From Candidatus Phelpsiimicrobium noxiivivens (GTDB taxonomy: Bacteria; Omnitrophota; Gorgyraeia; Velamenicoccales; Velamenicoccaceae), in contig MNVR01000007.1 of NCBI GenBank assembly GCA_001873995.1, forward strand, positions 1 to 64,000: a DNA stretch of 64,000 nt. The letters run 5' to 3'. Below the pieces are notes generated by a model. It was not told where the DNA came from, searched no databases, and worked only from the letters and a program-made list of their open reading frames with translations. The position numbers were made by a program, and so were the translations under genes. Positions 38,992 through 62,265 of the stretch are shown in pieces; position 1 is the stretch's first letter, and each line of letters starts with the position of its first letter.

Positions 38992-41900
38992 ATGTACGCT
39001 GAGAATGAAAGAATAATCCCGGTTTGTATTGAAGATGAGATGAAAGAGTCGTATTTGTCTTACGCGATGAGCGTTATCGTGGGCCGCGCTCTGCCCGATG
39101 TCAAAGACGGCTTAAAACCAGTGCATCGCAGGATACTTTATGCCATGCATGAGCTCAGCCTTGACCACACCAAACCCTATAAAAAATCCGCTCGCATCGT
39201 AGGCGAATGTTTCGTTAAAGACACTCTTGTGCTTACTGAGCGCGGGTTGATCCCTATCCAGGACATTCAGCGCGGTGAACTTGTTTATACTCAAGGCGGC
39301 CGGAATCCGGTAACACAGCTTTTTGAAATGCCGCCGAAAAATTTGTTGAAGATCACGTTGGAAAACGGGATTTGTAATACAGCAACTCCTTCTCAAAAAT
39401 TTAAAGTCTTGAATGAAAAGTGGGATTTTGTGTGGAAAGAAGCCAGGGACCTTACGCCGCAGGACTATGTCGTTATGAAAGCGCAGGCTCCGTCAGTAAA
39501 AGATCATGTCTTGCTGGGCCATTTATCCGGCGCGCGCAAGATCGTCCTTAATGAAAACATAGCCTATTTGTTGGGTTGTTTATTGTCGGACGGATGGGTA
39601 GAAAAGAAAACTAACAGGCTTTATTTTTATTCTATTAGCCATGAGGTAATAGAGAGGGTTGGCGAAATCCTAAAAGAAGAATTTGGCTATCAAGCTAATA
39701 TGGAAATAAAAGAGTATATTTACCGGACAGAACATAAAAATATTAAGCAAACGGGCTATCAGATAAGGATCAACAGAAAAACTATTAATGATTTCTTGGT
39801 TGATGTGTTTTCTCTCAAGGACGCCTGGGCTTTGGCTAAAAAGATACCGCCTCAGATGTTTGTTTCTCGCGCATCCGTGGTGTGGGCGTTTGTTTCGGGT
39901 CTTGTGGATGGCGACGGAAGCGTTCACTGCCAGAGGAATGTGATCCATTATGGTTCTATCTCTGAGGAGCTGATCAATCAATTGCAACTTCTTATGTTCC
40001 AGCATAATGCCGTAAGCGTAAAATATACCCAAGAGCCGAAACAGGAATGCTGGGTCGATCAAAAACGGGTTATCGGCCGGCACAAGTTTTATAGCCTGGA
40101 ATTCAGAGGCCCTTATGCTCATGTAGTTGCTTTAAATATATCTGTTGCCGATCCCGCTAAAAGCGCCAATATTATTAATATGCTTAGCAAAGAGCAACGT
40201 CAACCATGGTCAAGTTTGGATATTTTGCCCTACGCGGGCTCTATGGTATTTGAAGAATTGAGCAAGGCACATCTATGCGGTGGATGGTATCAGGGCTCAG
40301 CCGGCAATAAATTTAGATCTGGGATAAAGTATCAGGGTGGAACCAAAATAAGATACTGCGAAGAATCGCAAGAGAAGCCGTTAAAAATGTCTCAAATCGT
40401 TAGCTGGGGCATTTTGGATAAGTTAAGAAAAATAGATTCCCCGTTTTTTAGATTCTTGGACGGAATACTTGAGCAAAACGTATGTTTTGCTCAAGTGGCT
40501 TCTGTGGAAGCAGCGCCCGCGCAAAAAACATATGACATACAGGTGCAGGATGAGCACGAATTTGTTGCCAACGGAATGATCGTCCATAATTGCCTTGGTA
40601 AATATCATCCGCATGGAGATACCGCTGTTTACGACACCCTGGTGCGCATGGTCCAGGATTTTTCTCTGCGCTATCCTTTGGTGGACGGGCAAGGTAACTT
40701 TGGCTCTGTTGACGGGGATGCTGCTGCCGCAATGCGATACACGGAGGCGAGGCTTGCCGCCATTTCCGACGAGATGCTCTCGGATATTGAAAAAGATACT
40801 GTTGATTTCGCGCCTAATTTTGACGCGTCCCTGCAGGAGCCTGTGCTTCTGCCGTCTGTTTTGCCGAACCTTTTAGTGAATGGTTCAAGCGGCATAGCGG
40901 TCGGTATGGCTACTAACGTGCCGCCGCATAATCTCACAGAAGTTGTTGACGGCATCTGTTTTCTGATAGATAACCCCGAGGCAGAGATAAAAGAGCTTAC
41001 GCGCTTTATTAAGGGGCCTGATTTTCCCACGGGCGGCATTATATGCGGCCGCGACGGTATCAAAAACGCTTTTAATACCGGCAGGGGTAAGATCACACTG
41101 CGGGCGCGGGCCTCTATTGAGCGCCAGAAGAGCGGCAGGGATAATGTCCTGATCACTGAGATACCTTATCAGGTAAATAAAACCACTCTTATTGAATCTA
41201 TCGCCGGACTCGTGCAGGAAAAAAAGATAGAAGGCATCAGTGACATACGAGATGAATCTGATAAAGACGGCATGCGCGTAGTGATAGAGCTTAAGCGCGA
41301 TTCCGAACCGCAGATCATTTTAAATCAGCTTTATAAGCATACTCAACTTGAGACGACGTTTGGCATAATCGCCCTCGCCCTTGTTGAGGGAAGGCCCAGG
41401 GTCCTGAATTTAAAGCAGATCATCCGTTGTTACATAGACCATCGCAAGGCCATAGTCAGGCGCCGCACGCAGTTTGACTTAGATAAGGCGCTTAAGCGCG
41501 CGCACATATTAGAGGGCCTAAAGATCGCCCTTAAATATTTAGACCGCGTCATAAAAACTATCCGCGCGTCAAAGAATACGCCAGAGGCCAAAAAGGCCCT
41601 GATGAAAAATTTTGACCTTTCTGATCTTCAGGCTCAGGCGATCTTAGAGATGCAGTTACAGCGCCTGACCGCTCTTGAGCGCGAAAAATTAGAGGCTGAA
41701 TACCTGGAGCTTTTAAAACAGATAGAAAAATTCCGGGCGATATTGGCTTCGGAGAAATTGATAGAGAATATGATCAAGGATGAACTGGCCGCGCTGAAAA
41801 AGAAATATGGCGACGAGCGCAGGACAGAGATCATAGGCGAAGTGGAGGACATAGAAATAGAAGACCTTATAGCCGAAGAAGACATGGTCATCACCATATC

Positions 41901-42822
41901 GCACGCCGGTTATATAAAAAGGCTTGCCATTAGCGCTTACCGCAAACAGAAACGCGGGGGCAAGGGCGTGACCGCCATGGAGACGAGAGAAGAGGATTTT
42001 GTGGAACGCCTTTTTGTAGCCTCTACCAAGGATTATCTGCTTGTGTTCACTGATCAGGGCCGCCTTCATTGGATAAAGGTCTATGAGATCCCATTGGCTT
42101 CGCGTCAGTCAAAAGGTAAGGCTATCATTAATCTTCTGCAAGTGGGCGCCAAAGAGAAAGCAGCGGCCGTCCTCCCGGTTAAAGAGTTCAGCGATAAAAA
42201 AGCCATTATTCTGTGTTCAAAAATGGGCGTCATTAAGAAGACCTTGTTATCGGCTTTCGCAAATCCGCGTAAAGGCGGTATTGCGGCTATGGGGCTGGAT
42301 AAGGATGACGCGGTTATGGAAGCAAAATTGACGGATGCCAACCAGGATATCCTTATAGCTACTCGTCAGGGTAAGGCAATACGATTTAAGGAAAAACAGA
42401 TCCGCGAGATGGGCCGGCAGGCAAAGGGCGTGCGCGGCATTTTTCTTGCCAAGAAGGATGAAGTTGTCGGTATGGAAGTTATCTCAGCGGATATTACTAA
42501 GACGGGCGCCACTATTTTAACGGTTACGTCAGGCGGCTTTGCCAAGAGGACCGTCCTGGATGAATACAGGATCCAGTCCCGCGGCGGCAAAGGCATCATT
42601 AACGTGAAAGTCACCGAAAAGAACGGCGAGGCAGTGGCGCTCAACTGCGTTTTGCCTGGCGACGAGCTTATGACCATTACCCAGCAGGGCATGATGGTGC
42701 GCTGTCCTGTCAAAGATATTCGTGAAACAGGCCGTAACGCCCAGGGCGTGCGCCTGATGGCGTTAGATAAGAACGACGCCGTCACCTCCGTAGCTAAGAT
42801 CGTAGCTAAGGAAGAAGAATAA
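38992..42822 (+). CDS. gyrA: DNA gyrase subunit A with intein
   Basis: The reading frame is 1276 residues: 72 residues of N-extein, a 461-residue intein, and the remaining GyrA (exteins 815 residues, the normal size). The N-extein has SYLSYAMSVIVGRALPDVKD and KPVHRRILY. The C-extein begins CLGKYHPHGDTAVYDTLVRM and contains the catalytic tyrosine in AAAAMRYTEARLA, followed by the C-terminal pinwheel domain with GQ/RQAKGVR repeats. Function requires splicing. It introduces negative supercoils with GyrB. Confidence 0.97.
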   Translation: MYAENERIIPVCIEDEMKESYLSYAMSVIVGRALPDVKDGLKPVHRRILYAMHELSLDHTKPYKKSARIVGECFVKDTLVLTERGLIPIQDIQRGELVYTQGGRNPVTQLFEMPPKNLLKITLENGICNTATPSQKFKVLNEKWDFVWKEARDLTPQDYVVMKAQAPSVKDHVLLGHLSGARKIVLNENIAYLLGCLLSDGWVEKKTNRLYFYSISHEVIERVGEILKEEFGYQANMEIKEYIYRTEHKNIKQTGYQIRINRKTINDFLVDVFSLKDAWALAKKIPPQMFVSRASVVWAFVSGLVDGDGSVHCQRNVIHYGSISEELINQLQLLMFQHNAVSVKYTQEPKQECWVDQKRVIGRHKFYSLEFRGPYAHVVALNISVADPAKSANIINMLSKEQRQPWSSLDILPYAGSMVFEELSKAHLCGGWYQGSAGNKFRSGIKYQGGTKIRYCEESQEKPLKMSQIVSWGILDKLRKIDSPFFRFLDGILEQNVCFAQVASVEAAPAQKTYDIQVQDEHEFVANGMIVHNCLGKYHPHGDTAVYDTLVRMVQDFSLRYPLVDGQGNFGSVDGDAAAAMRYTEARLAAISDEMLSDIEKDTVDFAPNFDASLQEPVLLPSVLPNLLVNGSSGIAVGMATNVPPHNLTEVVDGICFLIDNPEAEIKELTRFIKGPDFPTGGIICGRDGIKNAFNTGRGKITLRARASIERQKSGRDNVLITEIPYQVNKTTLIESIAGLVQEKKIEGISDIRDESDKDGMRVVIELKRDSEPQIILNQLYKHTQLETTFGIIALALVEGRPRVLNLKQIIRCYIDHRKAIVRRRTQFDLDKALKRAHILEGLKIALKYLDRVIKTIRASKNTPEAKKALMKNFDLSDLQAQAILEMQLQRLTALEREKLEAEYLELLKQIEKFRAILASEKLIENMIKDELAALKKKYGDERRTEIIGEVEDIEIEDLIAEEDMVITISHAGYIKRLAISAYRKQKRGGKGVTAMETREEDFVERLFVASTKDYLLVFTDQGRLHWIKVYEIPLASRQSKGKAIINLLQVGAKEKAAAVLPVKEFSDKKAIILCSKMGVIKKTLLSAFANPRKGGIAAMGLDKDDAVMEAKLTDANQDILIATRQGKAIRFKEKQIREMGRQAKGVRGIFLAKKDEVVGMEVISADITKTGATILTVTSGGFAKRTVLDEYRIQSRGGKGIINVKVTEKNGEAVALNCVLPGDELMTITQQGMMVRCPVKDIRETGRNAQGVRLMALDKNDAVTSVAKIVAKEEE
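39208..40590 (+). mobile_element. GyrA intein with LAGLIDADG (DOD) endonuclease domain
   Basis: The intein starts with Cys (CFVKDTLVLTERG) and ends ANGMIVHN before Cys+1. Block A and block F (TYDIQVQDEHEFVANGMIVH) are intact. Block B reads TATPSQKFKVL, with Gln where His is normal. Block C (YLLGCLLSDGWVE) and block E (FVSGLVDGDGSVH) carry the two endonuclease aspartates. It is inserted at IVGE^CLGKYHPHGD, several residues before the Y^HPHGD site of mycobacterial GyrA inteins. Cys replaces the usual Val at +1. Confidence 0.95.
40467..40496. repeat. Perfect 13-bp palindrome inside the intein
   Basis: ACTTGAGCAAAAC and GTTTTGCTCAAGT pair exactly around GTAT. It encodes ILEQNVCFAQV, between the endonuclease part and the C-terminal splicing blocks. 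Confidence 0.7.
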
Positions 42823-48232: not shown

Positions 48233-49162
48233 ATGTCAAAAAGAACGATCTTGTTCCTTCTTGCCATATCTTTTTTGAGTTTTAGCATATTTCCGGGTTG
48301 TGACCTAATACAGAACCTTTTTCCCGGCAAGGTTGTTTCGGCTCCAAACGTAACAGGCAAAACTACGTCGGCAAACCCTGTTGCTGATGCCGGCGAACCT
48401 GCCCTAGGGACTGTTTTGGCCCGCGTCAATAATGTTGTCATTACTTTGGAGAGCTTTGACGAAAAAGTAAAGAATATTGAAGCCCGCTCTCCGGAGGTCA
48501 AGATCAATACGCTGGATGCTAAAAAGGTTTATTTGAATGACTTAGTGACGCAAGAACTTCTTTCGCAGGAAGCCATGGCGCGCGGCATAGATAAGAAAAA
48601 AGATATTAAAGACGCGATAGAAGAAATTAAGAAGCAGATTTTGGTGCGTCAGCTTGTGATGGACGAGACAACAGGCATAGCCATTGAGTCCGCCGAAATA
48701 GAAGCTTTTTATAATCAGTATAAGAAAGAATTCGCGGCTCCCGAGGAGATAAGGGCTAGAGAGATCGTGGTGTCATCAGAGGCGGCGGCAAAAGAGATCC
48801 TGATCGGCCTTCTTCAGGGCGGGGATTTCGCGGCCGTTGCTAAAGAGCGCTCCATCGCGCCCAGCGCGAGTTCGGGCGGGGACCTTGGTGTTGTGAAAAA
48901 AGACGACAAGTTTGAAAAGTTCTATGAAGTTATAGCTACCCTTGATGCTGGGCAGGTTAGTCAGATATTTAAGGGCGCAGAAGGATTCTATATAGCGAAA
49001 GTTGATCAAAAAAAGGGTGGCGCTGTGCCGCCATTAACTGAAGTTTACGATCAGATCAAAAATGGCCTTTTACAGCGGAAGACAGCGGTGCGCGTCCAGG
49101 AGTTGACTGATAAGATAAAGCGAGAAGCTAAAATAGAGATCAAAGAAGATATTTTAAGGTAG
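48233..49162 (+). CDS. SurA/PrsA-type peptidyl-prolyl isomerase lipoprotein
   Basis: The 309-residue protein has a signal peptide with a lipobox (SIFPGC, Cys at residue 23). A SurA N-like helical part follows (VARVNNVVITLESF-type start, DLVTQELLSQEAMARGID), then a parvulin domain from about residue 170 (EIRAREIVVSSEAAAKEIL, GGDFAAVAKERSIAPSASSG, GGDLGVVKKDDKF). It folds envelope proteins. It is the first gene of the pilus locus, 3 bases before cpaB, and could assist secretin or pilin export. Confidence 0.92.
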   Translation: MSKRTILFLLAISFLSFSIFPGCDLIQNLFPGKVVSAPNVTGKTTSANPVADAGEPALGTVLARVNNVVITLESFDEKVKNIEARSPEVKINTLDAKKVYLNDLVTQELLSQEAMARGIDKKKDIKDAIEEIKKQILVRQLVMDETTGIAIESAEIEAFYNQYKKEFAAPEEIRAREIVVSSEAAAKEILIGLLQGGDFAAVAKERSIAPSASSGGDLGVVKKDDKFEKFYEVIATLDAGQVSQIFKGAEGFYIAKVDQKKGGAVPPLTEVYDQIKNGLLQRKTAVRVQELTDKIKREAKIEIKEDILR

Positions 49163-49165
49163 GCT

Positions 49166-50047
49166 ATGGATAAGAAAAAACTAAGCTTGATATTAGCCCT
49201 TGTGTTAGCCGGCACGGGTGTTTTTATGATAAGGAATTATATCGCTCAAACCGAGAAAAAATTCATCAAAGAAGAAAAGAAGGCTTATGTGCTTGTGGCA
49301 ACGGTAAACATAGCCGCCGGCACGACCATTGATTCATCCATGATAAAGTTTGACGCAGTGCCTGAAAGGTATGTCCAGCCCAAAGCGCTTAATTCAGAGA
49401 ATCTTGTCGTAGGCAAGCGTGCGATAGCCGATATCTTTCCTGGAGAGCAGATAATGTCCACCAAACTGACCATTTCAGTAAGGGATATGAGCCTTGCTAT
49501 GAGGACTCCTCAGGGAAAGCGCGCCATCACCGTGACGATTCCTTTGCTTTCAGCGGTAGGCGGCAAGATACGGCCGGGAGATTATGTGGATGTTGTCGGA
49601 ACTTTTTCTTATAACTCGCAGGTTGAAGGTAAGCAGGTAGTTGAGCCTGTCAGCGTGACGTTATTTCAGAACGTTTTGCTGTTGGGTATTGAAGGCGGCG
49701 CGCCCGCGGAGAGGGGTAAGCCCGCCCCCGCTCTTACAGACCTTGTGGTAACGCTCGCGCTCTCGCCAAAAGAAATAGCTCTTTTGACTTACGCGCTTGA
49801 TGGCCAGGGCAGGATAAGGCTTGTTTTAAGGCCGCCGCTGGAAACAGCGGTTGAACCAGTGCCGCCTGTTGAAGTGAACACATTATGGCAGTATGTGTTT
49901 AGTAATCTGGGCCAGGAATTTCTCGCCACAAAAGATGATAAGCCGCACATTGTAAAACAACAGCAGGAAAAGAAGGTTGAACCGCCGCCGGCTCCGTCAA
50001 TGGAGATCTATCGCGGCACGCAAAAGTCCAGCATGATATTAAAATAG
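49166..50047 (+). CDS. cpaB: Flp/Tad pilus assembly protein CpaB (RcpC)
   Basis: The 293-residue protein has an N-terminal membrane anchor (KLSLILALVLAGTGVFMI), a SAF domain (VLVATVNIAAGTTIDSSMI, VVGKRAIADIFPGEQIMS) and the RcpC-type beta domain (GKRAITVTIPLLSAVGGKIR, PGDYVDVVGTF). It is an inner-membrane/periplasmic part of the Tad machine. It sits between the parvulin gene and the secretin gene. Confidence 0.92.
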   Translation: MDKKKLSLILALVLAGTGVFMIRNYIAQTEKKFIKEEKKAYVLVATVNIAAGTTIDSSMIKFDAVPERYVQPKALNSENLVVGKRAIADIFPGEQIMSTKLTISVRDMSLAMRTPQGKRAITVTIPLLSAVGGKIRPGDYVDVVGTFSYNSQVEGKQVVEPVSVTLFQNVLLLGIEGGAPAERGKPAPALTDLVVTLALSPKEIALLTYALDGQGRIRLVLRPPLETAVEPVPPVEVNTLWQYVFSNLGQEFLATKDDKPHIVKQQQEKKVEPPPAPSMEIYRGTQKSSMILK

Positions 50048-50052
50048 CCCAT

Positions 50053-51666
50053 ATGAGACATAAAGCCGCAATATTATTAGGCCGCCATTTTATTGTTTTT
50101 GCCCTGAGCTTTATGGCAGCCGGCTCTGTTTATCCCGAATATTTTTCTGAAGAGTATGGTTCTCCACGCAAGTTGGATATGGTGGTCGGCGAGTCTAAGG
50201 TGTTGGCAGTCTCCAATCCAAAGAGGGTGGCGATCGGAGACCCTGCTGTGGCAGATGTGGCCGGCGCAAGCTCTACAGAGATCATTATTTCGGCAAAGGT
50301 AGCCGGCGAGACGAACCTGCAGGTCTGGGATGATATGGGACAGAGAGAGGTCATCATCAACGTCTTTATTGAAGACCTCACCAAACTAAAAACCAGGTTA
50401 GAAGACTTGTTTTGGACAGCGGGCATACGCGGGATAACATTTCAGGTGGGCGAACAGGAGCGAAAGATATTTGTGCTTGGCGATTTGCCCCTGCGCAAGA
50501 AAGAGGTCGTGACCCAGCTCCTTGGTAATTTTAAAGACAAGATCATTAACCTTCTGACCTATTCCGAAGACAATCCTCTTGTTGAGATGGACGCTCAGAT
50601 TATGGAGATCTCAAAGACCGCTGTTGATAGGCTCGGCATTGACTGGTCGCAAACAGTGACTTTTAATGAGATCCAACCCGGGGCCCCTGCGGCTACGGCA
50701 GGGACAGTATTTCCACAGCATACCCTGGACCGGCAGATGGGCGATCTGCTAAAATCAGTGTGGCAGTCAAAGTTTAACAGGACGACGCTGACCGCCACCC
50801 TGAATATATTAGAGAAAGACAATCTTGCTCGCACGCTGGCGCGGCCTAAACTTGTGGCATTGAGCGGCAGTGAGGCTAAATTTTTGGTGGGTGGGCAGGT
50901 CCCGATTATCGCAAACGTTTCTGTTTCCAGCGGCACAACCACGACCTCCATTGATTACGTTGATTATGGCATAAAGCTTAATGTTAAACCCGAGGTAAAA
51001 GAGACAGGCGATATTCTTTGCAAGATAGAAGTTGAGATAAAGGATATTGATGCCGCAAACTCCATAACTATCCCATCCGGAGGGGGCATCACGACATCGC
51101 CCGGGTTTAAAACGCGGAATGCCTCAACCCAGCTTTATTTAAAAAATAACCAGACGATATTCCTCGCGGGTTTGATCAATAACGCGCAGACTAATGATTT
51201 AAACCAGGTTCCGGGTCTGGGAGATATCCCTATTTTGGGGGCTTTGTTCAGGTCCAAAAATTTTCAAGTTGGCGACACGGAACTTGTCATTTCAATTACG
51301 CCAAGGATAGTAAATTACGGCGATATGCGCCAGGATATACAGGATCTCTCATCGTCTAAAAGAAGCGCGGATGAAGAACCCGCGGATACCTATATCCGCG
51401 CTGTCCAGGAGACGATATTAAAGAACGTCAGTTACCCGCTTGAGGCCCAGCGCGCCAATTTATCTGGCGGTGTGGTGTTGAGCCTGCACTTATTTTCCAA
51501 CGGCCAGCTAGCCGGAGTCGTAGTGAATGAGTCTTCAGGCCATAAGTTACTGGACAACGCCGCGATATTTACTGTAAAGCGGCTCGCTCCTTATCCCGCT
51601 TTTCCCAAGGGCCTGCTGTTAAAAGAGATCTGGGTAGAAGTGCCCATCACATACCAGTTAAGTTAG
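50053..51666 (+). CDS. cpaC: CpaC/RcpA secretin with C-terminal TonB domain
   Basis: The product has 537 residues. After a signal peptide, the BON-like N-domain (VLAVSNPKRVAIGDPAVADV, STEIIISAKVAGETNLQVWD) leads to the secretin part (VEMDAQIMEISKTAVDRLGI, ARPKLVALSGSEAKFLVGGQ, QVPGLGDIPILGALFRSKNF, VISITPRIV). From about residue 446 a TonB C-terminal domain is attached (SYPLEAQRANLSGGVVLSLH, SSGHKLLDNAAIFTVKRLAP). It forms the outer-membrane pore. The TonB domain is not part of standard CpaC and may contact the wall or another envelope partner. Confidence 0.93.
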   Translation: MRHKAAILLGRHFIVFALSFMAAGSVYPEYFSEEYGSPRKLDMVVGESKVLAVSNPKRVAIGDPAVADVAGASSTEIIISAKVAGETNLQVWDDMGQREVIINVFIEDLTKLKTRLEDLFWTAGIRGITFQVGEQERKIFVLGDLPLRKKEVVTQLLGNFKDKIINLLTYSEDNPLVEMDAQIMEISKTAVDRLGIDWSQTVTFNEIQPGAPAATAGTVFPQHTLDRQMGDLLKSVWQSKFNRTTLTATLNILEKDNLARTLARPKLVALSGSEAKFLVGGQVPIIANVSVSSGTTTTSIDYVDYGIKLNVKPEVKETGDILCKIEVEIKDIDAANSITIPSGGGITTSPGFKTRNASTQLYLKNNQTIFLAGLINNAQTNDLNQVPGLGDIPILGALFRSKNFQVGDTELVISITPRIVNYGDMRQDIQDLSSSKRSADEEPADTYIRAVQETILKNVSYPLEAQRANLSGGVVLSLHLFSNGQLAGVVVNESSGHKLLDNAAIFTVKRLAPYPAFPKGLLLKEIWVEVPITYQLS

Positions 51667-51668
51667 AA

Positions 51669-51792
51669 TGACAAATGCCCAATGCTAAACGACAAACGAA
51701 TTACCAAAGACCAATTGAAAGATTTGGAATTGGTGTTTAATTTGCCTGTCTGCCGGCCAGGCAGGGATTTTGTCATTTGGAATTTGTCATTC
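51669..51792. repeat. 7-bp periodic inverted element with nested palindrome
   Basis: The left arm has TGACAAA-type heptamers (51669-51696), then an 11-mer ending CCAA. The right arm has ATTTGG/ATTTGTC units up to 51792. Inside the right arm is a CCTG-TCTGCCGGCCAGGC-AGG palindrome (51745-51765). The layout matches the element at 60491. It separates cpaC from the cpaE-cpaF fusion. Confidence 0.7.
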
Positions 51793-51812
51793 AACCGTTT
51801 TTGCAGGTGATT

Positions 51813-54008
51813 ATGGCAGAAGAACAAGCGCGTATAGGCAATGTTATATCTATTTTTAGTACGAAGGGCGGCGTTGGCAAGACGCTCCTTGCCGTCAACC
51901 TTGCTATTGCCATGGCACAGGAAGGCAAAAAAATAGCGCTTATAGATCTGGATCTCCAGGCCATTCAGGACATGGCCAGGATGATAGACACGACCCCGCA
52001 GTATTCCATCTTTGATATTGTCTCCATTATTGACAAGGTTGAACAATTGGGGAATATAAAAAATTACATGACCCTTGTTCCGGTCGGCATAGATTTTTTA
52101 CCTGCCATTACCAGGCCAAAGCAATCTCCTCATATCACAGGAGATCGTATAAGCAAGATTATATCAATGTTGACACCTATCTATGATTTTATAATAGTGG
52201 ATGGCGGCAGGGCTTTTACAGACAGTCTAATCAGTATCTTCAACCGCTCTAACCTCATACTTTTTATTGTTACTCCTGATATACTTTCTGTTTACGAGAC
52301 GCGCTGGGGGCTTGATGTGCTTCAGTCGCTGCACTTTCCTTTAAAAATGATAAAGCTTCTTTTAAACAGAGCAGAGAGTAAGTCAGGCTTGTCCTGGCAG
52401 GAAGTAAAGCTCGCTTTACCATGCGAGATAATATCAAGTATCCCCAGCGACGGAAGGGTCGTGGGCCTGGCGCTCAACCGCGGCGTGCCCGTGGTCGTTG
52501 ATAACCCATCCAGCCGCGTGAGCGCCGCCATTAAAAAATTCGCGCAGAACCTTATATCCAAGGCCAGTCTTTATATCGCGCATAAAGAAGTTGAAGAACT
52601 CAGGTCAATTAAAAAAGAAGAAATGCCTTCGGCTGGCACTTTTTGGGATGCTATGGGCCTGGCTGACAAGGTCAAATGGATAAAACCCCTTGAGCAGGAA
52701 GATGAGATCATAAAATTAAAGCGCCGCATCCACGCGCGCCTTATTGAAGAGTTGGATTTAAAACGCCTGGATATGGAGTTGATCAATAATCCTAAAAAAG
52801 CAAAAGAGCTCAGGGAAAAAGCCGAAAAGATCGTTACCAATCTGTTGGCTGAAGAGACCGGCGCTTTTTTGTCTTCGTTTGAAGTCCGCGAAAAACTCGT
52901 CAAAGACGTTGCCGATGAAGCGCTGGGGCTCGGGCCGTTAGAAGAACTTATCCGTAATCAGGATATCACGGATATTATGGTCAACAATAAAGACCAGATC
53001 TATATTGAACAACACGGTAAGCTTGAATTGACCAGTAAAAAATTTATCTCTGACGACCAGGTGCGCGTCGTTATTGAGCGTATCATTGCGCCTCTTGGAA
53101 GGCGCATTGATGAATCAGTGCCTATGGTAGATGCGCGCCTGCCTGACGGCTCGCGCGTCAACGCTATCATACCCCCCCTTTCTTTAACAGGCCCGACGTT
53201 GACCATAAGGAAATTCGCCAGAGAGCATTATACGGTGGAAGACCTTATCTCACGTTTTTATAGCCTTGATAAAAATATAGCTGATTTTCTTTCTGCTTGT
53301 GTTATGTTCAGGAAGAACGTGATCGTTTCCGGAGGGACAGGTTCAGGAAAGACCACCTTTTTAAATATACTTTCCACTTTTATCCCGAACGACGAAAGGA
53401 TAGTCACCATTGAAGACGCCGCTGAATTGCGCTTAAACCAAGAACACTGGGTGCGCTTAGAGTCAAGGGCTCCCAATATAGAAGGTAAGGGCGCTATTAC
53501 TATCCGCGACCTTTTCCGTAATTGCCTAAGAATGAGGCCCGACCGCATTATAATAGGTGAGTGCCGCGGAGGCGAGGTATTAGATATGCTTCAAGCCATG
53601 AACACAGGCCACGACGGCTCCATGACTACCATTCACGCTAATTCTACGCGCGACGTTTTGTCTCGTCTTGATTCTATGATACTTATGAGCGGGGTGGAGC
53701 TGCCCATACGCGCCATCCGCGAAATGACCGCTTCTGCTATTGACCTTGTTGTCCAGACCGCCAGGCTTTCCGACGGCTCAAGAAAGATAACGCAGGTAAC
53801 AGAGATAGCCGGCATGGATGACGAAACACATATCAAGTTTGCCGATATTTTTCGCTTTAAGCAGCTCTCCATTGATAAAGAACATAATAATAAAGTCATC
53901 GGGAAATTCATAGCCACAGGGCATATCCCGTCCTTCTATGACGAATTGGTCACCCGCGGCATCAACCTTTCCAAAGATATCTTTATCTCCACTGAAACCC
54001 TAAAATAA
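51813..54008 (+). CDS. CpaE-CpaF fusion (TadZ-like ATPase joined to TadA secretion ATPase)
   Basis: The product has 731 residues from ATG 51813; an in-frame ATG at 51777 lies inside the upstream repeat. Residues 1 to about 265 are a ParA/MinD-type domain: deviant Walker A STKGGVGKTLLAVNLAIAM, then KIALIDLDLQAIQDM. From about residue 290 follows a CpaF/TadA ATPase: LEELIRNQDITDIMVNNKDQ, Walker A SGGTGSGKTTF (about residue 506), RMRPDRIIIGECRGGEVLDM and MTTIHANSTRDVLSRL. CpaE localises and CpaF powers the pilus. They are normally separate genes, so this fusion ties position to power. Confidence 0.93.
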   Translation: MAEEQARIGNVISIFSTKGGVGKTLLAVNLAIAMAQEGKKIALIDLDLQAIQDMARMIDTTPQYSIFDIVSIIDKVEQLGNIKNYMTLVPVGIDFLPAITRPKQSPHITGDRISKIISMLTPIYDFIIVDGGRAFTDSLISIFNRSNLILFIVTPDILSVYETRWGLDVLQSLHFPLKMIKLLLNRAESKSGLSWQEVKLALPCEIISSIPSDGRVVGLALNRGVPVVVDNPSSRVSAAIKKFAQNLISKASLYIAHKEVEELRSIKKEEMPSAGTFWDAMGLADKVKWIKPLEQEDEIIKLKRRIHARLIEELDLKRLDMELINNPKKAKELREKAEKIVTNLLAEETGAFLSSFEVREKLVKDVADEALGLGPLEELIRNQDITDIMVNNKDQIYIEQHGKLELTSKKFISDDQVRVVIERIIAPLGRRIDESVPMVDARLPDGSRVNAIIPPLSLTGPTLTIRKFAREHYTVEDLISRFYSLDKNIADFLSACVMFRKNVIVSGGTGSGKTTFLNILSTFIPNDERIVTIEDAAELRLNQEHWVRLESRAPNIEGKGAITIRDLFRNCLRMRPDRIIIGECRGGEVLDMLQAMNTGHDGSMTTIHANSTRDVLSRLDSMILMSGVELPIRAIREMTASAIDLVVQTARLSDGSRKITQVTEIAGMDDETHIKFADIFRFKQLSIDKEHNNKVIGKFIATGHIPSFYDELVTRGINLSKDIFISTETLK

Positions 54009-57558: not shown

Positions 57559-57655
57559 TCTTGTGCGACAAAAATCGGTATCGGATCGGCAGATCCATTA
57601 TAAAAATCTGATGAAATACGCCACAGTAAACAAAAGATTTCGATATTGTATTTTC

Positions 57656-57724
57656 ACCGGGTCGTCATTTGCCGATCTCCTGCCTATTGGTAGGCAGGTA
57701 ATAATTGACAAAAGACGATCCGGT
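57656..57724 (+). promoter_or_regulatory. Two-level stem in the pilin leader
   Basis: ACCGGGTCGTC (57656-57666) pairs with GACGATCCGGT (57714-57724, one G-U). Inside is CCTGCCTA-TTGG-TAGGCAGG (57679-57698). It could be a regulatory RNA structure upstream of the pilins or an inserted palindromic element; the inner part resembles the palindrome at 51745. Confidence 0.55.
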
Positions 57725-57745
57725 ATTTTTTTGCAGATGTTAATA

Positions 57746-57943
57746 ATGAGATTAAAAAAGTTTTTCAAAAGCTGTAGTTTAAGAAATGGCGGCCAAGCTA
57801 TCGTAGAGTATTTTATTTTGCTTGTCCTCATAGCTGCTCTTACAATTATTGGAGGTTCTGTTTTGTTCGGCAAGGTAAAAACAACAACTAACAATTTCAG
57901 GGACGCAGCTTATGAGAAAATGGCTCCATATCCGGGCCCGTAA
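57746..57943 (+). CDS. Flp-type pilin 1
   Basis: The 65-residue protein has a basic leader ending NGG and then QAIVEYFILLVLIAALTIIG, the prepilin peptidase site (G before Q, Glu at +5 in this numbering) plus hydrophobic helix of Flp/Tad pilins. The tail is short (YEKMAPYPGP). An ATG at 57737 is also possible. It is the first of nine tandem pilin genes. Confidence 0.8.
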   Translation: MRLKKFFKSCSLRNGGQAIVEYFILLVLIAALTIIGGSVLFGKVKTTTNNFRDAAYEKMAPYPGP

Positions 57944-57972
57944 GTATAACAATTTTATATCAGAGCGTTGCC

Positions 57973-58125
57973 ATGAATAAAAGAGCTGGCCAGTCAGTTT
58001 TGGAATACGCAATCTTAATATCTGCTTTATGCGCTGTTTATATTACCATGTCAGCTTATATGCATCATGCTGTGAATGCAAAATTGCTTTCTGTGCAGGA
58101 CAGGGTTAATGAAGCGGTGCGATAG
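57973..58125 (+). CDS. Flp-type pilin 2
   Basis: The 50-residue protein MNKRAGQSVLEYAILISALC has a 5-6 residue leader cut after Gly and the Q-S-V-L-E-Y-A pilin start, then AVYITMSAYMHHAVNAKLLS. It is below routine ORF length limits. A weak GTTGCC precedes the ATG. Pilin-like in every feature except its very short tail. Confidence 0.78.
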   Translation: MNKRAGQSVLEYAILISALCAVYITMSAYMHHAVNAKLLSVQDRVNEAVR

Positions 58126-58133
58126 GAGTTCGT

Positions 58134-58346
58134 ATGAGTCATGTGAAGAAATTGTTCAGCGCGGGACAATCAGTTTTAGAATACGCGATGTTGCTTGCTA
58201 TTGTCAGCGCGGCCTTTATAACTATGGCCGTTTATGTGAGAAGGGCTATGCAGGGCCAGCTTTATCAAATTGAAAAGAGGACTGTTGCAAAGGCAGAGGT
58301 AAATACGTATGCAACGTCCGATGGTTGTCCGCCAATGTGTATTTGA
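58134..58346 (+). CDS. Flp-type pilin 3
   Basis: The 70-residue protein (SHVKKLFSAGQSVLEYAMLL) has the cleavage site after AG. The helix continues AIVSAAFITMAVYVRRAMQG. Two cysteines close to the C terminus (DGCPPMCI) could form a disulfide. The ribosome binding site GGAG lies 7 bases upstream. Confidence 0.82.
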   Translation: MSHVKKLFSAGQSVLEYAMLLAIVSAAFITMAVYVRRAMQGQLYQIEKRTVAKAEVNTYATSDGCPPMCI

Positions 58347-58388
58347 TGGGCGCGTTATTCCTGCCAGAGGCGGGCTCAAGGAGAAAAC

Positions 58389-58562
58389 ATGAGAACTAAA
58401 AAAGGTCAGATAATGATTGAATACGCGGTTATGTTCACGGTAATAGTCGCGGCTGTAATAGTTGCCTCAATTATGTTGATCAAACCGTCTTTGAACAAAT
58501 TTTTTGGTACGACAGCAAGGGTTATTGACAACGCGTCTACCAGGGTTGAAAGCAATTTTTAA
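58389..58562 (+). CDS. Flp-type pilin 4
   Basis: The 57-residue protein MRTKKGQIMIEYAVMFTVIV continues AAVIVASIMLIKPSLNKFFG. The IKPSLNKFFG segment is shared with pilin 5 and sets these two apart from the Y-x-x-RG-x-QG type. Cleavage after KKG is expected. It is too short for routine ORF lists. Confidence 0.8.
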   Translation: MRTKKGQIMIEYAVMFTVIVAAVIVASIMLIKPSLNKFFGTTARVIDNASTRVESNF

Positions 58563-58645
58563 TCCAGAAAGGATAGGCCTGCTCAATTCCATTAAGGGCA
58601 GGGCCTAATGAAATATTCCGGAGGGAGAGAGGGGGTGGAAAACAG

Positions 58646-58912
58646 ATGAAGAAAGTGTTTGGCAGGGTAGGGCAAAGCACGTTGGAATATGTAATAGTGT
58701 TGACGGCGATCGTGGCGGCTATTCTTTTTGCAGCCGCGCAGTTTATCAAACCGTCTGTTAACAAAATATACGGCGATGCTGGTACAACGTTGAATGCGAG
58801 CGGAACGTTGTTTGGTAATGCCGTAGGCGGAGGTTTGAACCTTACAGCAGGCGCGGCAGCAGGCGCGGCAGCAGGCGCGGCAGGCGCGGCAGCCGGTTCA
58901 ACCGCGATATAG
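58646..58912 (+). CDS. Flp-type pilin 5 with Ala/Gly repeat tail
   Basis: The 88-residue protein (KKVFGRVGQSTLEYVIVLTA) has IKPSVNKIYGDAG after the helix, like pilin 4. The tail is a low-complexity AGAA-type sequence encoded by tandem 12-bp repeats (58847-58891). A strong GGAGGGAG ribosome binding site lies upstream. Confidence 0.8.
   Translation: MKKVFGRVGQSTLEYVIVLTAIVAAILFAAAQFIKPSVNKIYGDAGTTLNASGTLFGNAVGGGLNLTAGAAAGAAAGAAGAAAGSTAI
58847..58891. repeat. In-frame 12-bp tandem repeat in pilin 5
   Basis: GCAGGCGCGGCA occurs three times in a row (58847-58882), followed by a 9-bp partial copy. Each unit encodes AGAA, so changes in copy number keep the frame and change only tail length. Confidence 0.8.
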
Positions 58913-58956
58913 TAAGAAACGCCAGATTTTTTTGGCGAGAGGAGGTGTTAACGAGA

Positions 58957-59310
58957 ATGCTTAGATGGTTAAACGCAAAGAGAGGCCAGAATACAGCCGA
59001 ATACGCTATCCTTATCGGTGTTATCGTGGCAGCGGCTATCGCTATGCAGATATATATAAGGCGCGGTATGCAGGCCAGAATAAAAGATGCTGTTGATTTT
59101 ACCAGGACAGCGGATGACGACGCGGGCAACGGATTGTTTAATCAGAGCCAGTATGAGCCGTATTATCTGAATACCACTTTTGCAACGACTCAGAGCGGCA
59201 CGAAGAGCCAAGAATTGCAGGTGGGCGGCGGTGTTGTTGTGAACGCTATCAGCGAAGGGACGCAGAGGTCAGGGAACCAGACATACTCTAATTATATGCT
59301 GGGTAACTAA
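58957..59310 (+). CDS. Flp-type pilin 6 (long tail)
   Basis: The 117-residue protein from ATG 58957 (GGAGG 11 bases upstream) has AKRGQNTAEYAILIGVIVAA and the QIYIRRGMQARIKDAVDF continuation. The tail of about 70 residues is Thr/Ser/Asn/Gln-rich. A GTG at 58945 is a less likely start. Confidence 0.85.
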   Translation: MLRWLNAKRGQNTAEYAILIGVIVAAAIAMQIYIRRGMQARIKDAVDFTRTADDDAGNGLFNQSQYEPYYLNTTFATTQSGTKSQELQVGGGVVVNAISEGTQRSGNQTYSNYMLGN

Positions 59311-59341
59311 CAAATAAGCAAATTTAAGGAGGTGAAAATAG

Positions 59342-59659
59342 ATGCGCAAGTGTTTTAGTAAAAGAGGCCAGAGCACTCTTGAGTACGCGGTTTTAATAGT
59401 AGTCATAATCGCGGCTCTTATAGCTATGCAGGTATATTTAAAGCGTGGCATACAGGGCCGCATGAGAGAATCTTCTGACCAAATAGGAGAGCAGTTTTCA
59501 CCGGGTTACACAGTTTCTAACCGCGTGACGAACACGTTCTCGAACACGCTGGAAACAACGGACGCGTATTCTACAACGACGGAGATACTAAATCAGTTCC
59601 AGAACGTGACCGGAGCAGAGAACGTAATGGCGGCTGCTAATGAGTACTGGGGAAAGTAA
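59342..59659 (+). CDS. Flp-type pilin 7 (long tail)
   Basis: The 105-residue protein (KCFSKRGQSTLEYAVLIVVI) continues MQVYLKRGIQGRMRESSDQI. The tail is Thr/Asn-rich (NTFSNTLETTDAYSTTTEIL). An ideal AAGGAGGTG precedes the ATG. Its last base overlaps the next start (TAATG). Confidence 0.87.
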   Translation: MRKCFSKRGQSTLEYAVLIVVIIAALIAMQVYLKRGIQGRMRESSDQIGEQFSPGYTVSNRVTNTFSNTLETTDAYSTTTEILNQFQNVTGAENVMAAANEYWGK

Positions 59660-60093
59660 TGTTAAGAAAATACGCGAACACTTTGACTGCGCTCAGTGTA
59701 AACAGACAGAGTAATGCAAGGGCGCGCGCCCTCCGCGCGCCCGCATTATTCTGTCTGTGGCGCGGCGTGAGAGCTTGTCTTGAGCGCAACCGAAGGGGCC
59801 AACAGGCCATAGAATACGCTGTGTTGATATCAGCTATCATCGCGGCTTTATTATTCATGTATATGTACGCTAGGCGTGGATTGCAGGCGGCTATAAAATC
59901 GTCGGCTGACCAGATAGGCCCGCAGAGCCACAACGAGCCTTTGGCCGGGGTTGTGAAGACAACAGGCAATGCCACCATGTCAACAGTTACAAACGATTTG
60001 ACGCAGGTCAATAAGATCGGAGAGGAAACATATTATGATTATCAATCCGTCTCAACATCGCAGGGGCTTTCGGAGACGCATACGCAGGAGTGA
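59659..60093 (+). CDS. Flp-type pilin 8 with hairpin-encoded leader extension
   Basis: The 144-residue protein has RRGQQAIEYAVLISAIIAAL at about residue 45, so its leader is about 45 residues instead of 5-15. Most of the extra leader is encoded by a large inverted repeat (59702-59758). Because the leader is removed by prepilin peptidase, the mature pilin is unaffected. The tail carries QIGPQSHNEP and a Thr/Asn-rich part. Confidence 0.83.
   Translation: MLRKYANTLTALSVNRQSNARARALRAPALFCLWRGVRACLERNRRGQQAIEYAVLISAIIAALLFMYMYARRGLQAAIKSSADQIGPQSHNEPLAGVVKTTGNATMSTVTNDLTQVNKIGEETYYDYQSVSTSQGLSETHTQE
59702..59758. repeat. Large inverted repeat in the pilin 8 leader
   Basis: ACAGACAGAGTAATGC-AA-GGGCGCGC pairs with GCGCGCCC-GCATTATTCTGTCTGT, a 24-bp stem with a two-base bulge and one G-U around a 7-base loop. 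It is flanked by a TTTGACTGCGCTCAG copy (59682) and its inverted counterpart (TTGAGCGCAACCGAAGG, about 59781), related to the unit at 61960. Confidence 0.8.
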
Positions 60094-60097
60094 TTAG

Positions 60098-60478
60098 ATG
60101 ATGCGAAAAAGAGGCCAATCCGTTATGGAAACAGCTGTTCTTATATTAATTATTGTAAGCGCTCTTATAGCTATGCAGGTCTACTTAAAGCGCGGCATAC
60201 AGGGCCGCTTGAGAACCAGCATTGACAGTATAGGCGAACAGTATGACCCGCAGGCAACAAGCTCAAATTTTACTGTAGGCCACACTAGCAATGTAGAGAC
60301 AACAACGAACACAAGCACACAGCAAAAGGTTGTGAGCGGCGGCTATGATGACCTGGGTGGCGGGATGTGGACCGGCGCTCCTCCTGTAAAGGAAAATGTT
60401 ATTACAACAGACTCAAGGATCGAAATATATTATGACAACACAACAAAAACCGGCTATGAGACTGTCGCAAACCCATAA
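60098..60478 (+). CDS. Flp-type pilin 9
   Basis: The 126-residue protein starts MRKRGQSVMETAVLILIIVS; it has Thr where the other eight pilins have Tyr after the conserved Glu. It shares MQVYLKRGIQGRLRTSIDSI with pilin 7. The tail is Thr/Ser/Asn-rich with two Gly-rich turns. ATG 60098 or the adjacent ATG at 60101 may be used. Confidence 0.85.
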   Translation: MMRKRGQSVMETAVLILIIVSALIAMQVYLKRGIQGRLRTSIDSIGEQYDPQATSSNFTVGHTSNVETTTNTSTQQKVVSGGYDDLGGGMWTGAPPVKENVITTDSRIEIYYDNTTKTGYETVANP

Positions 60479-60489
60479 TTGAAGAAGAA

Positions 60490-61836
60490 ATGACAAATGC
60501 CAAATTTCAAATGACAAATGGAGCCCCAATGACCAAAGTCAAATTTAAAAATTTGTATTTGGGATTTCGTTTGGGTTTTGGATCTGGGATTTCGAGATCA
60601 TATAAAGGACAGGCCTTGGTTGAGCTGGCTGTGTTCGGCGCATTTTTTCTTATACTGCTGGGCGTTTTGTTATCTTATGGCCTTAAATATAACTTTCAGC
60701 AAAAGGCCCAGATGACAGTTTTCAGGCGCGCTTTAAAAATAGCTTCAGATCAAGGCAGAGGCATTGGCGCCGCGATGATTTTGGAGGACCGCGCTATACC
60801 CGATCCAACTACGATGTTTGGCATAGGTTTTACCGCTCCCATTGTGGCTTCAGCTTCAGTCCAGCGCGATCATATGATGCATGCCCAGCCTGTTGACGAG
60901 GATTCCTTAAGCGGAACTGTGATGGATATTCAGACAAGCCGAGACGGCTCAGAGGAGACACAGGCGTGGATGCGGCGCATATATAAGACAGCTGCTTTTC
61001 GGGTTGAATATTTGGTGCCCAAAGAAAACTTAGACAAATATCGGGAGATCTTTGGCTCCTCTCTCCTTGCTTTGAAAAGCGGCGGTTCAATAGAGGATCA
61101 GGGCTCATGGGCGTCAACGAGTGACGATGAAGCTGATATGACTCTTCTGGAAAACGGTAGCAAAGCCTATACTGCCATAAGGATTATTGATACCTGCTCC
61201 GGAGAAATTTCTGATTATGATACTTGTTATACACAGGCGCGCCAGTTGGTAGATCCGGAATTTTGCAAGAGAAAATGTGAGCTGGCTAAGGGGCCAGGTT
61301 CTGATACTGACTGCGCCAGCGTATGCAATATTGAAACTAATCCGCCAAACCAGACGGACAGAATATATGACGACTTAAAGGGAGGCGCCTGGTATGCGGC
61401 AGATTGGGAGGGTCCACAGCCTTCTGTCGCGCCTCCTGCCGTGCAGGTAAATCCTAACTATAACTTTCCATATTTAAGCGGATATAAAAACGATGGGACT
61501 ATTGTGCCGGCATTATTCAGCTTTTCAGGGGCGAGGTCCGCGGGTGACCCAGTGAAGCAAATGGCCATGGGCCTTCATAGCGATATGACACAAAATGTTG
61601 TAAGAAACGAATCAATGGCCAAGACAGAGACGACAGGCGCTATCTCAACGCAGGAAGACGCTGTTTGGACGGATACATTGAATAGAACGCTCGTCCATCA
61701 GGATAATATAAATGCCAACGGATTTGAAAAGATCCCGGCTTCCGGACAACCGGGTGATTTCGTAAACGTGAGAACGCGCAATGTTGTGTCAGATGTTTCT
61801 GGTTCATTGAGCCAGGCGCAGGTGACTGTAAAATAA
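60490..61836 (+). CDS. TadE-like pseudopilin with repeat-derived N terminus
   Basis: The 448-residue protein has YKGQALVELAVFGAFFLILL near residue 39, a prepilin-type signal with Glu, then GLKYNFQQKAQMTVFRRALK. The large C-terminal part contains two Cys clusters (CSGEISDYDTC; CKRKCELAKG...CASVC). The first ~35 residues (MTNAKFQMTNGAPMTKVKF and on) are encoded by a periodic repeat element, so the present start codon lies in the repeat. TadE-like minor pilins help pilus assembly. Confidence 0.82.
   Translation: MTNAKFQMTNGAPMTKVKFKNLYLGFRLGFGSGISRSYKGQALVELAVFGAFFLILLGVLLSYGLKYNFQQKAQMTVFRRALKIASDQGRGIGAAMILEDRAIPDPTTMFGIGFTAPIVASASVQRDHMMHAQPVDEDSLSGTVMDIQTSRDGSEETQAWMRRIYKTAAFRVEYLVPKENLDKYREIFGSSLLALKSGGSIEDQGSWASTSDDEADMTLLENGSKAYTAIRIIDTCSGEISDYDTCYTQARQLVDPEFCKRKCELAKGPGSDTDCASVCNIETNPPNQTDRIYDDLKGGAWYAADWEGPQPSVAPPAVQVNPNYNFPYLSGYKNDGTIVPALFSFSGARSAGDPVKQMAMGLHSDMTQNVVRNESMAKTETTGAISTQEDAVWTDTLNRTLVHQDNINANGFEKIPASGQPGDFVNVRTRNVVSDVSGSLSQAQVTVK
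60491..60594. repeat. 7-bp periodic inverted element providing a gene start
   Basis: TGACAAA-type heptamers (60491-60518) and an 11-mer ending CCAA form the left arm. ATTTGG-, TTTGG- and GGGATTTCG-type units form the right arm up to about 60594. The ATG at 60490 begins one base before the first heptamer. Confidence 0.7.
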
Positions 61837-61840
61837 TTTA

Positions 61841-61897
61841 GCGCGTTGGTGAATAAATAAGTTGGCGAATTGGCGAGTAAACGAGTTGGCGAGCGGG
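61841..61897. repeat. 8-bp periodic element between the TadE-like genes
   Basis: Octamers AGTTGGCG, AATTGGCG, AGTAAACG and AGTTGGCG run from 61860 to 61891, with GTTGGTGAATAAAT-like half units just before. It lies directly upstream of the next gene's ribosome binding region. Confidence 0.65.
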
Positions 61898-61902
61898 AAG
61901 AC

Positions 61903-62265
61903 ATGAAAGAAAAAATGTCAATAAAAATATTGAATTGGCAAACTGACAGAGGGCAGGCCATTCGACTACGCTCAGGGCAAGCAACCCTGGAGTTGACAGT
62001 GGCGCTGATACTTATCGTGATACTTTTGATGGCTGGGGTTAAGGTATTCCTTTGGCTCAACGAAGGCTTGGTGCACAGACAAGTTTCTTATGAAAATACG
62101 CGCGTTGCAGCAGGGAACACATCGCCAGAAACAGTCAGTTTGGATGCTTACTTGGATAATGTTGAACCGCAAGATTTGGTGATAAGAGGCGCAAATGGTG
62201 GCACGGAGGTAGATTTCAATGAACCATTTAATGCGACATTTAATATCTTTGCAACATCTAACTAA
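61903..62265 (+). CDS. TadE-like pseudopilin with inserted REP unit at the cleavage site
   Basis: The 120-residue protein from ATG 61903 contains DRGQAIRLRSGQATLELTVA then LILIVILLMAG. The block IRLRSGQA is an exact 24-bp insertion (61960-61983) of a REP-like unit. Because the insert ends in GQA, a G-Q-A-T-L-E-L prepilin site is kept. The tail continues VKVFLWLNEGLVHRQ. The next gene starts inside its 3' end. Confidence 0.82.
   Translation: MKEKMSIKILNWQTDRGQAIRLRSGQATLELTVALILIVILLMAGVKVFLWLNEGLVHRQVSYENTRVAAGNTSPETVSLDAYLDNVEPQDLVIRGANGGTEVDFNEPFNATFNIFATSN
61960..61983. repeat. REP-like unit inside a prepilin leader
   Basis: ATTCGACTACGCTCAGGGCA (plus AGCA) encodes IRLRSGQA in frame. The same unit, degenerate, flanks the large hairpin at 59702-59758 and may occur at 3729. 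Confidence 0.7.

Follow-up and report, generated by a model that had tools for sequence, protein, structure and literature searches.

A Tad secretin with a C-terminal TonB domain is a conserved variant in Omnitrophota

The C-terminus of secretins lies in the periplasm, outside the barrel, and the RcpA pore of Pseudomonas aeruginosa is built of 13–14 subunits. In that species, pore assembly depends on the last four residues of RcpA, to which TadD, a lipoprotein pilotin, binds (PMC10499894). In Caulobacter, cryo-ET and AlphaFold modelling indicate that the lipoprotein CpaD, with a predicted peptidoglycan-binding OmpA-like fold, forms a belt around the barrel of the Tad pore (PMC13170226). In Aeromonas, the ExeD secretin is assembled by ExeB, for which 39% similarity to TonB has been reported, together with ExeA, which binds peptidoglycan (PMC4098917). 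The type II secretin GspD carries a C-terminal addition of another kind, the S-domain, which recruits a pilotin.

Here we describe a secretin from Omnitrophota that resembles each of these systems in part. With RcpA/CpaC it shares the N-terminal pil_N domain, the secretin domain, and the CpaB, CpaE/CpaF, TadB/TadC, and Flp-type pilin neighbours, whereas in place of the short unstructured TadD-binding tail of known RcpA proteins (PMC10499894) it has a TonB domain that is predicted to be folded. A periplasmic belt around the barrel that is tied to the cell wall, as proposed for CpaD (PMC13170226), is also what we propose here. CpaD, however, is a separate lipoprotein with an OmpA-like fold, whereas here the proposed function would reside in the secretin chain itself, in an unrelated fold, and CpaD (PF09476) was found in none of 54 fusion-bearing genomes (the Caulobacter control was positive). 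ExeA/ExeB (GspA/GspB) provide the precedent of a TonB-like protein that helps a secretin to pass and dock in the cell wall, as proposed here (PMC4098917), but ExeB is a protein of its own, located in the inner membrane, and binds the N0N1 region at the N-terminus of the secretin, whereas the present TonB domain is covalently attached at the C-terminus. The S-domain of GspD is likewise a C-terminal addition, but it is a short tail or helix and not a TonB fold.

The gene lies in a 64,000-nucleotide stretch of contig MNVR01000007.1 (hereafter the window), part of a 1.56 Mb metagenome-assembled genome (MAG) of Omnitrophota from the family of Ca. Velamenicoccus archaeovorus. It is a single open reading frame (ORF) of 537 aa without internal stop or frameshift, with the following parts:

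50053–51666, + strand: Tad secretin (RcpA/CpaC type) with a C-terminal TonB domain, 537 aa (Pfam, NCBIfam, family relatives)
50053–50142, + strand: N-terminal hydrophobic signal-like segment, aa 1–30 (sequence; helix at aa 2–20 in a low-confidence model)
50164–50364, + strand: T2SS-T3SS_pil_N domain, aa 38–104 (Pfam PF13629, 2e-15)
50809–51312, + strand: secretin beta domain, aa 253–420 (Pfam PF00263, 3.6e-45)
51313–51384, + strand: linker, aa 421–444 (24 residues; 20 to about 180 residues among relatives)
51385–51663, + strand: TonB C-terminal domain, aa 445–537 (Pfam, NCBIfam, PDB sequence search, model)

The succession of a PF13629 N-domain and a PF00263 secretin domain is that of Tad secretins (RcpA/CpaC), and the gene is encoded together with CpaB, CpaE/CpaF, TadB/TadC, and Flp-type pilins, as expected for this family. 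The best solved relatives of the secretin domain are 8jvb and P. aeruginosa RcpA (8odn). The model for the type II secretin GspD (TIGR02517) scored 154 bits, below its curated cut-off of 351. The short TadD-binding tail is absent, since the chain ends in the TonB domain, and we regard this tail as a feature of P. aeruginosa that does not define the Tad secretin family. No lipobox was seen in the signal-like segment (aa 1–30), which is the least conserved part of the protein within the family. The product is not a TonB energy transducer, because the N-terminal inner-membrane anchor and the proline-rich spacer are missing; instead, a signal-like N-terminus is followed by secretin domains. It is a Tad secretin by its domains and operon, and its tail is assigned as a TonB C-terminal domain by sequence and predicted fold.

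The tail matched TonB_C (PF03544) at aa 458–536 over positions 2–79 of the 79 in the model (2.2e-14; 54.1 bits against a cut-off of 24.6), and the NCBIfam model tonB_Cterm (TIGR01352) with 53.2 bits against 27.1, whereas the match to TonB_2 (PF13103) was barely over the cut-off. When the last 96 residues were searched against the PDB with phmmer, only TonB proteins were found, the best being the Helicobacter pylori TonB tail (5lw8, 6sly). An AlphaFold2 model of the last 113 residues, made with seven relatives, reached a modest confidence (pLDDT 68.6) and had the order helix, helix, strand, strand, helix, strand. Foldseek placed H. pylori TonB first with this model (6sly, E 3.2e-6, TM 0.67; then 5lw8, 8e-6), and ranks 1–26 were all C-terminal domains of TonB, HasB, FusB, or TolA. 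The secretin tail is thus predicted to adopt the TonB fold. It shares PF03544/TIGR01352 and the predicted fold with the TonB C-terminal domain family (TonB, HasB, FusB, TolA), but differs from the proteins of that family in being joined to an outer-membrane pore, with neither inner-membrane anchor nor proline-rich spacer. A model of the full-length secretin built with 7 close sequences (pLDDT 43.7) was too poor to place the TonB domain relative to the barrel. Mean pairwise identity within the family was highest in the TonB domain (81%), followed by the secretin domain (77%), pil_N (73%), the linker (59%), and the signal segment (30%).

A preliminary description of this DNA, made from the letters of this one gene, had proposed a Tad secretin fused to a TonB C-terminal domain, and this proposal is now backed by sequence, predicted fold, neighbourhood, and relatives. 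All the motifs that it quoted are present, the frame runs uninterrupted between the domains where a stop or frameshift would have undone the claim, Pfam finds PF00263, PF03544, and PF13103 in one chain, and the structure prediction that it called for returned a TonB fold with TonB/TolA-type domains at PDB ranks 1–26. We regard the fusion itself as virtually certain. The description also took the fusion not to be a described standard; in agreement, our literature search, which was incomplete, found no paper on a secretin with a TonB domain, although domain databases may list the architecture. The main text of the Omnitrophota survey mentions neither secretin nor TonB. The near-universality of the fusion in the lineage was beyond the view of that one-gene reading.

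The full-length fusion was found in 7 of the 8 genomes of the family, including the complete chromosome of Ca. Velamenicoccus archaeovorus LiM, an epibiont; the eighth genome is a 0.8 Mb MAG that is 78% complete. All close relatives in named genomes belong to Omnitrophota, and 166 of 384 genomes of the phylum matched the family alignment (E <= 1e-40). Among the further phylum matches listed, the alignment extends to positions 527–530 of 530, and they therefore include the TonB domain. We then scored 91 distinct Tad secretin genes in 92 loci across the phylum with a TonB-domain HMM. The domain was present in 85 of them; four of the others are cut by a contig end (L141, L144, L158, L160), and two are intact Tad secretins without a TonB domain (L150 from genome G013 and L161 from G047), both outside the class to which the window belongs. 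The domain is retained over the whole range of linker lengths, and two families (f41 and f56) have two TonB domains per chain. Two Tad secretins of about 1,000 aa (L101 from G021, L102 from G018) carry two TonB domains, and the former shows a weak TPR match at the chain end, recalling the TPR pilotin TadD. Outside Omnitrophota, the fusion search covered plasmids: in the 909 records with secretin matches, secretin-end and TonB matches fell on separate genes, with no fusion. Three doubtful plasmid cases were not fusions, two being secretins without TonB match (L109, L183) and one a stand-alone TonB (L182). Myxococcota and Lysobacter have RcpA proteins that reportedly cluster with those of Velamenicoccia (PMC10066038). 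No relatives were found on viral contigs. An assembly artefact, frameshift, or stop is ruled out by the intact ORF, the family genomes, and the phylum-wide counts. We conclude that the TonB-tailed Tad secretin is a real, ancient, and conserved variant, and that it belongs to a broader pattern, confined here to a single phylum, of secretins with TonB tails.

This wider pattern includes secretins of a second class. TonB_C matches were found in other genomes in frames of 567–707 aa, and 11 of the 12 frames retrieved, together with L128 of genome G002, are GspD-type secretins ending in a TonB-like domain. The remaining frame (L116:1–1992) lies at the start of a contig and is a fragment of an SGNH/GDSL hydrolase-like protein, whose C-terminus matches TonB_C with 50 bits. 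The TonB-tailed GspD-type secretins (L117–L128, L135–L139) lie near T2SS/T4P-like genes; their neighbours include T2SSM (GspM)-, PilN-, and T2SSC (GspC)-like proteins and an AAA ATPase. A phylum search with ten of these secretins returned dozens of chains matching to the model end, also in other classes. The GspD-type secretins examined in the genome of the window have no TonB-like domain. A tree built from 72 TonB domains contains a supported split (99/96) that separates the GspD-type domains from those of the Tad type; the former lie beside small stand-alone TonB proteins. A single origin of all secretin-borne TonB domains was rejected by the AU test (p-AU 0.0004, on an alignment of 93 columns only). 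These comparisons give good, but not final, evidence that TonB domains were joined to secretins at least twice.

The secretin gene stands within a tad operon, whose other main features in the window are:

48233–49162, + strand: PpiC-type prolyl isomerase, probable lipoprotein (lipobox FPGC), first gene of the operon (Pfam Rotamase_2, 1.5e-16; synteny)
49166–50047, + strand: CpaB/RcpC alignment protein (TIGR03177, 149.7 bits, cut-off 71)
51777–54008, + strand: CpaE-like ParA/MinD ATPase fused to a CpaF/TadA motor ATPase in one ORF (Pfam CbiA/AAA_31 and T2SSE)
57563–60478, + strand: array of small Flp-type pilin-like genes (sequence; weak Flp_Fap and Class_IIIsignal matches; conserved order)
60490–62265, + strand: TadE-like genes (sequence; weak PF07811 match; assigned by position)
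62219–64000, + strand: TadG-like gene running beyond the window, then a small lipoprotein, TadB, and TadC (T2SSF matches)

The order is prolyl isomerase, CpaB, secretin-TonB, and the CpaE-CpaF fusion, followed by DUF192 and other genes; the distal part holds the Flp-type pilins, the TadE-like and TadG-like genes, the small lipoprotein, TadB, and TadC. Relatives throughout the phylum preserve this order at least between the prolyl isomerase and CpaE-CpaF, as far as the retrieved stretches span it. Two small lipoproteins are encoded in the operon, the prolyl isomerase and a protein of 160 aa before TadB. A PpiC-type prolyl isomerase lies upstream in nearly all tad loci inspected that reach far enough, and the one at 48233–49162 is a candidate pore chaperone. 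The CpaE-CpaF ORF has an annotated TTG start, with an ATG at 51813, and scored 334 bits with TIGR03819, below the cut-off of 373; both halves of the fused polypeptide align in the Omnitrophota tad loci covering the gene.

Several other observations were made in this region and elsewhere in the window. Directly after TadC, an ORF of giant length (at least 9,944 aa) starts at 67232 of the same contig and is open at the contig end (L110:4233–19001, L129:2–15064), and TadC is likewise followed by a long ORF in V. archaeovorus LiM (L112; at least 2,058 aa, from about 29,826 of the chromosome). The passages of the phylum survey consulted on giant ORFs do not mention a position after TadC, and a link between Tad and the giant protein behind TadC is worth testing. 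In the TadE-like ORF at 61870–62265, 'RLRSGQA' adjoins 'GQATLELTV', as if a short repeat element had been added, with the frame preserved, close to the beginning of the mature part; an ORF on the - strand (61698–62060) has 'CPERSRM', a similar signature. As read from its translation, a DNA gyrase A-like gene (38992–42822) contains an intein-like insert with endonuclease-like sequence.

Three roles had been suggested for the fused domain in the preliminary description, namely anchoring the pore, gating it, or recruiting an outer-membrane partner. Our evidence favours anchoring together with assembly, because the TonB domain appears to replace the pilotin-binding tail and to have been added separately to a second secretin class. 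We propose that the pilotin-binding C-terminal tail of the Tad secretin was replaced by a folded TonB C-terminal domain and that, once the pore is assembled, the TonB domains would encircle the barrel as a ring in the periplasm, with the outer membrane on one side and the cell wall on the other. This ring may dock the pore in cis to peptidoglycan and/or to an outer-membrane partner or lipoprotein, which would let the pore assemble, stay in place, and withstand the pulling of the pilus. It would thus take over in cis a task that falls in trans to TadD in P. aeruginosa and, probably, to the OmpA-like CpaD in Caulobacter. No specific family model represents TadD, and the search for a TadD-like pilotin covered the tad locus, where no TPR-type (TadD-like) protein was recognised among the proteins scanned. 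A TadD-like pilotin may therefore be encoded elsewhere in the genome, and this possibility, like the presence of small lipoproteins in the operon, counts against the proposal. Within the family, no part of the protein is better conserved than the TonB domain, which is kept despite the variable linker, and we count this in favour of the anchoring and assembly role. Since the GspD-type class seems to have gained the module separately, a single origin being rejected, the module would suit secretins in general and not one cargo; the separate gain argues for a role tied to secretins as such. We judge the case for in-cis anchoring and assembly, with docking to peptidoglycan and/or an outer-membrane partner, to be evenly balanced. 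The broader reading is put forward tentatively and may well be wrong: that pilotin-free secretins evolved in Omnitrophota, a TonB-type domain, gained separately by at least two secretin classes, anchoring and assembling the pore in cis at the cell wall and outer membrane in place of separate pilotin or anchor lipoproteins.

TonB domains classically bind the TonB boxes of receptors, and the ring might instead dock by strand addition to TonB-dependent receptors, or to another outer-membrane or secreted protein with a TonB-box-like segment, and so recruit a partner to the pore. The fused domain spans the whole of TonB_C and carries the motifs usual for it, and a receptor plug domain was detected in 46 of 54 fusion-bearing genomes. 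In the other eight (all >= 90% complete) the fusion occurs with no plug detected, although MAG incompleteness could explain many of these cases; moreover, the tad locus showed no recognisable receptor gene, and the fused domain is far more regular in its occurrence than any receptor partner seen. We consider this docking unlikely. Many of the same genomes also encode separate TonB proteins, with which the fused domains could pair, as free members of an ExbBD system, or else the domains could pair with each other, to open and shut the pore. Such gating or energy coupling is very improbable, as the secretin has neither membrane anchor nor ExbB/ExbD-binding helix, the linker is often only about 20 residues, and Tad motion is powered by a cytoplasmic ATPase, which is present at the locus.

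A ring held together by contacts between subunits, without external ligand, would make the domain a purely structural extension. Tandem TonB copies in some families, the strong conservation of the domain, and the ability of TonB tails to dimerise in crystals are in line with this, but the long, variable linkers of many relatives argue against a fixed contact with the barrel, and we hold it to be distinctly unlikely. That the domain is a neutral passenger of gene fusion, or an artefact of assembly, is scarcely credible: our analyses yielded no evidence for it, and it is refuted by the conservation of the domain, which is kept in 85 of the 91 genes inspected, is the most conserved of its protein, and is present in a complete chromosome. 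Anchoring and assembly in cis is the reading that we retain.

The ways in which secretins travel to the cell envelope, pass through it, and hold their place there are under active study; to our knowledge, the helper proteins differ in every secretin system studied so far. A ligand-binding fold built into two kinds of secretin is a natural experiment, open to testing, on what the secretin C-terminus needs. Omnitrophota are tiny, often predatory bacteria. The pilus affected by the fusion is the Tad pilus of Velamenicoccia; the epibiont V. archaeovorus expresses it, and attaching to prey is its presumed function (PMC10066038). TonB-type domains, a fold normally found on separate energy-transducing proteins, would thereby gain a possible role beyond energy transduction.
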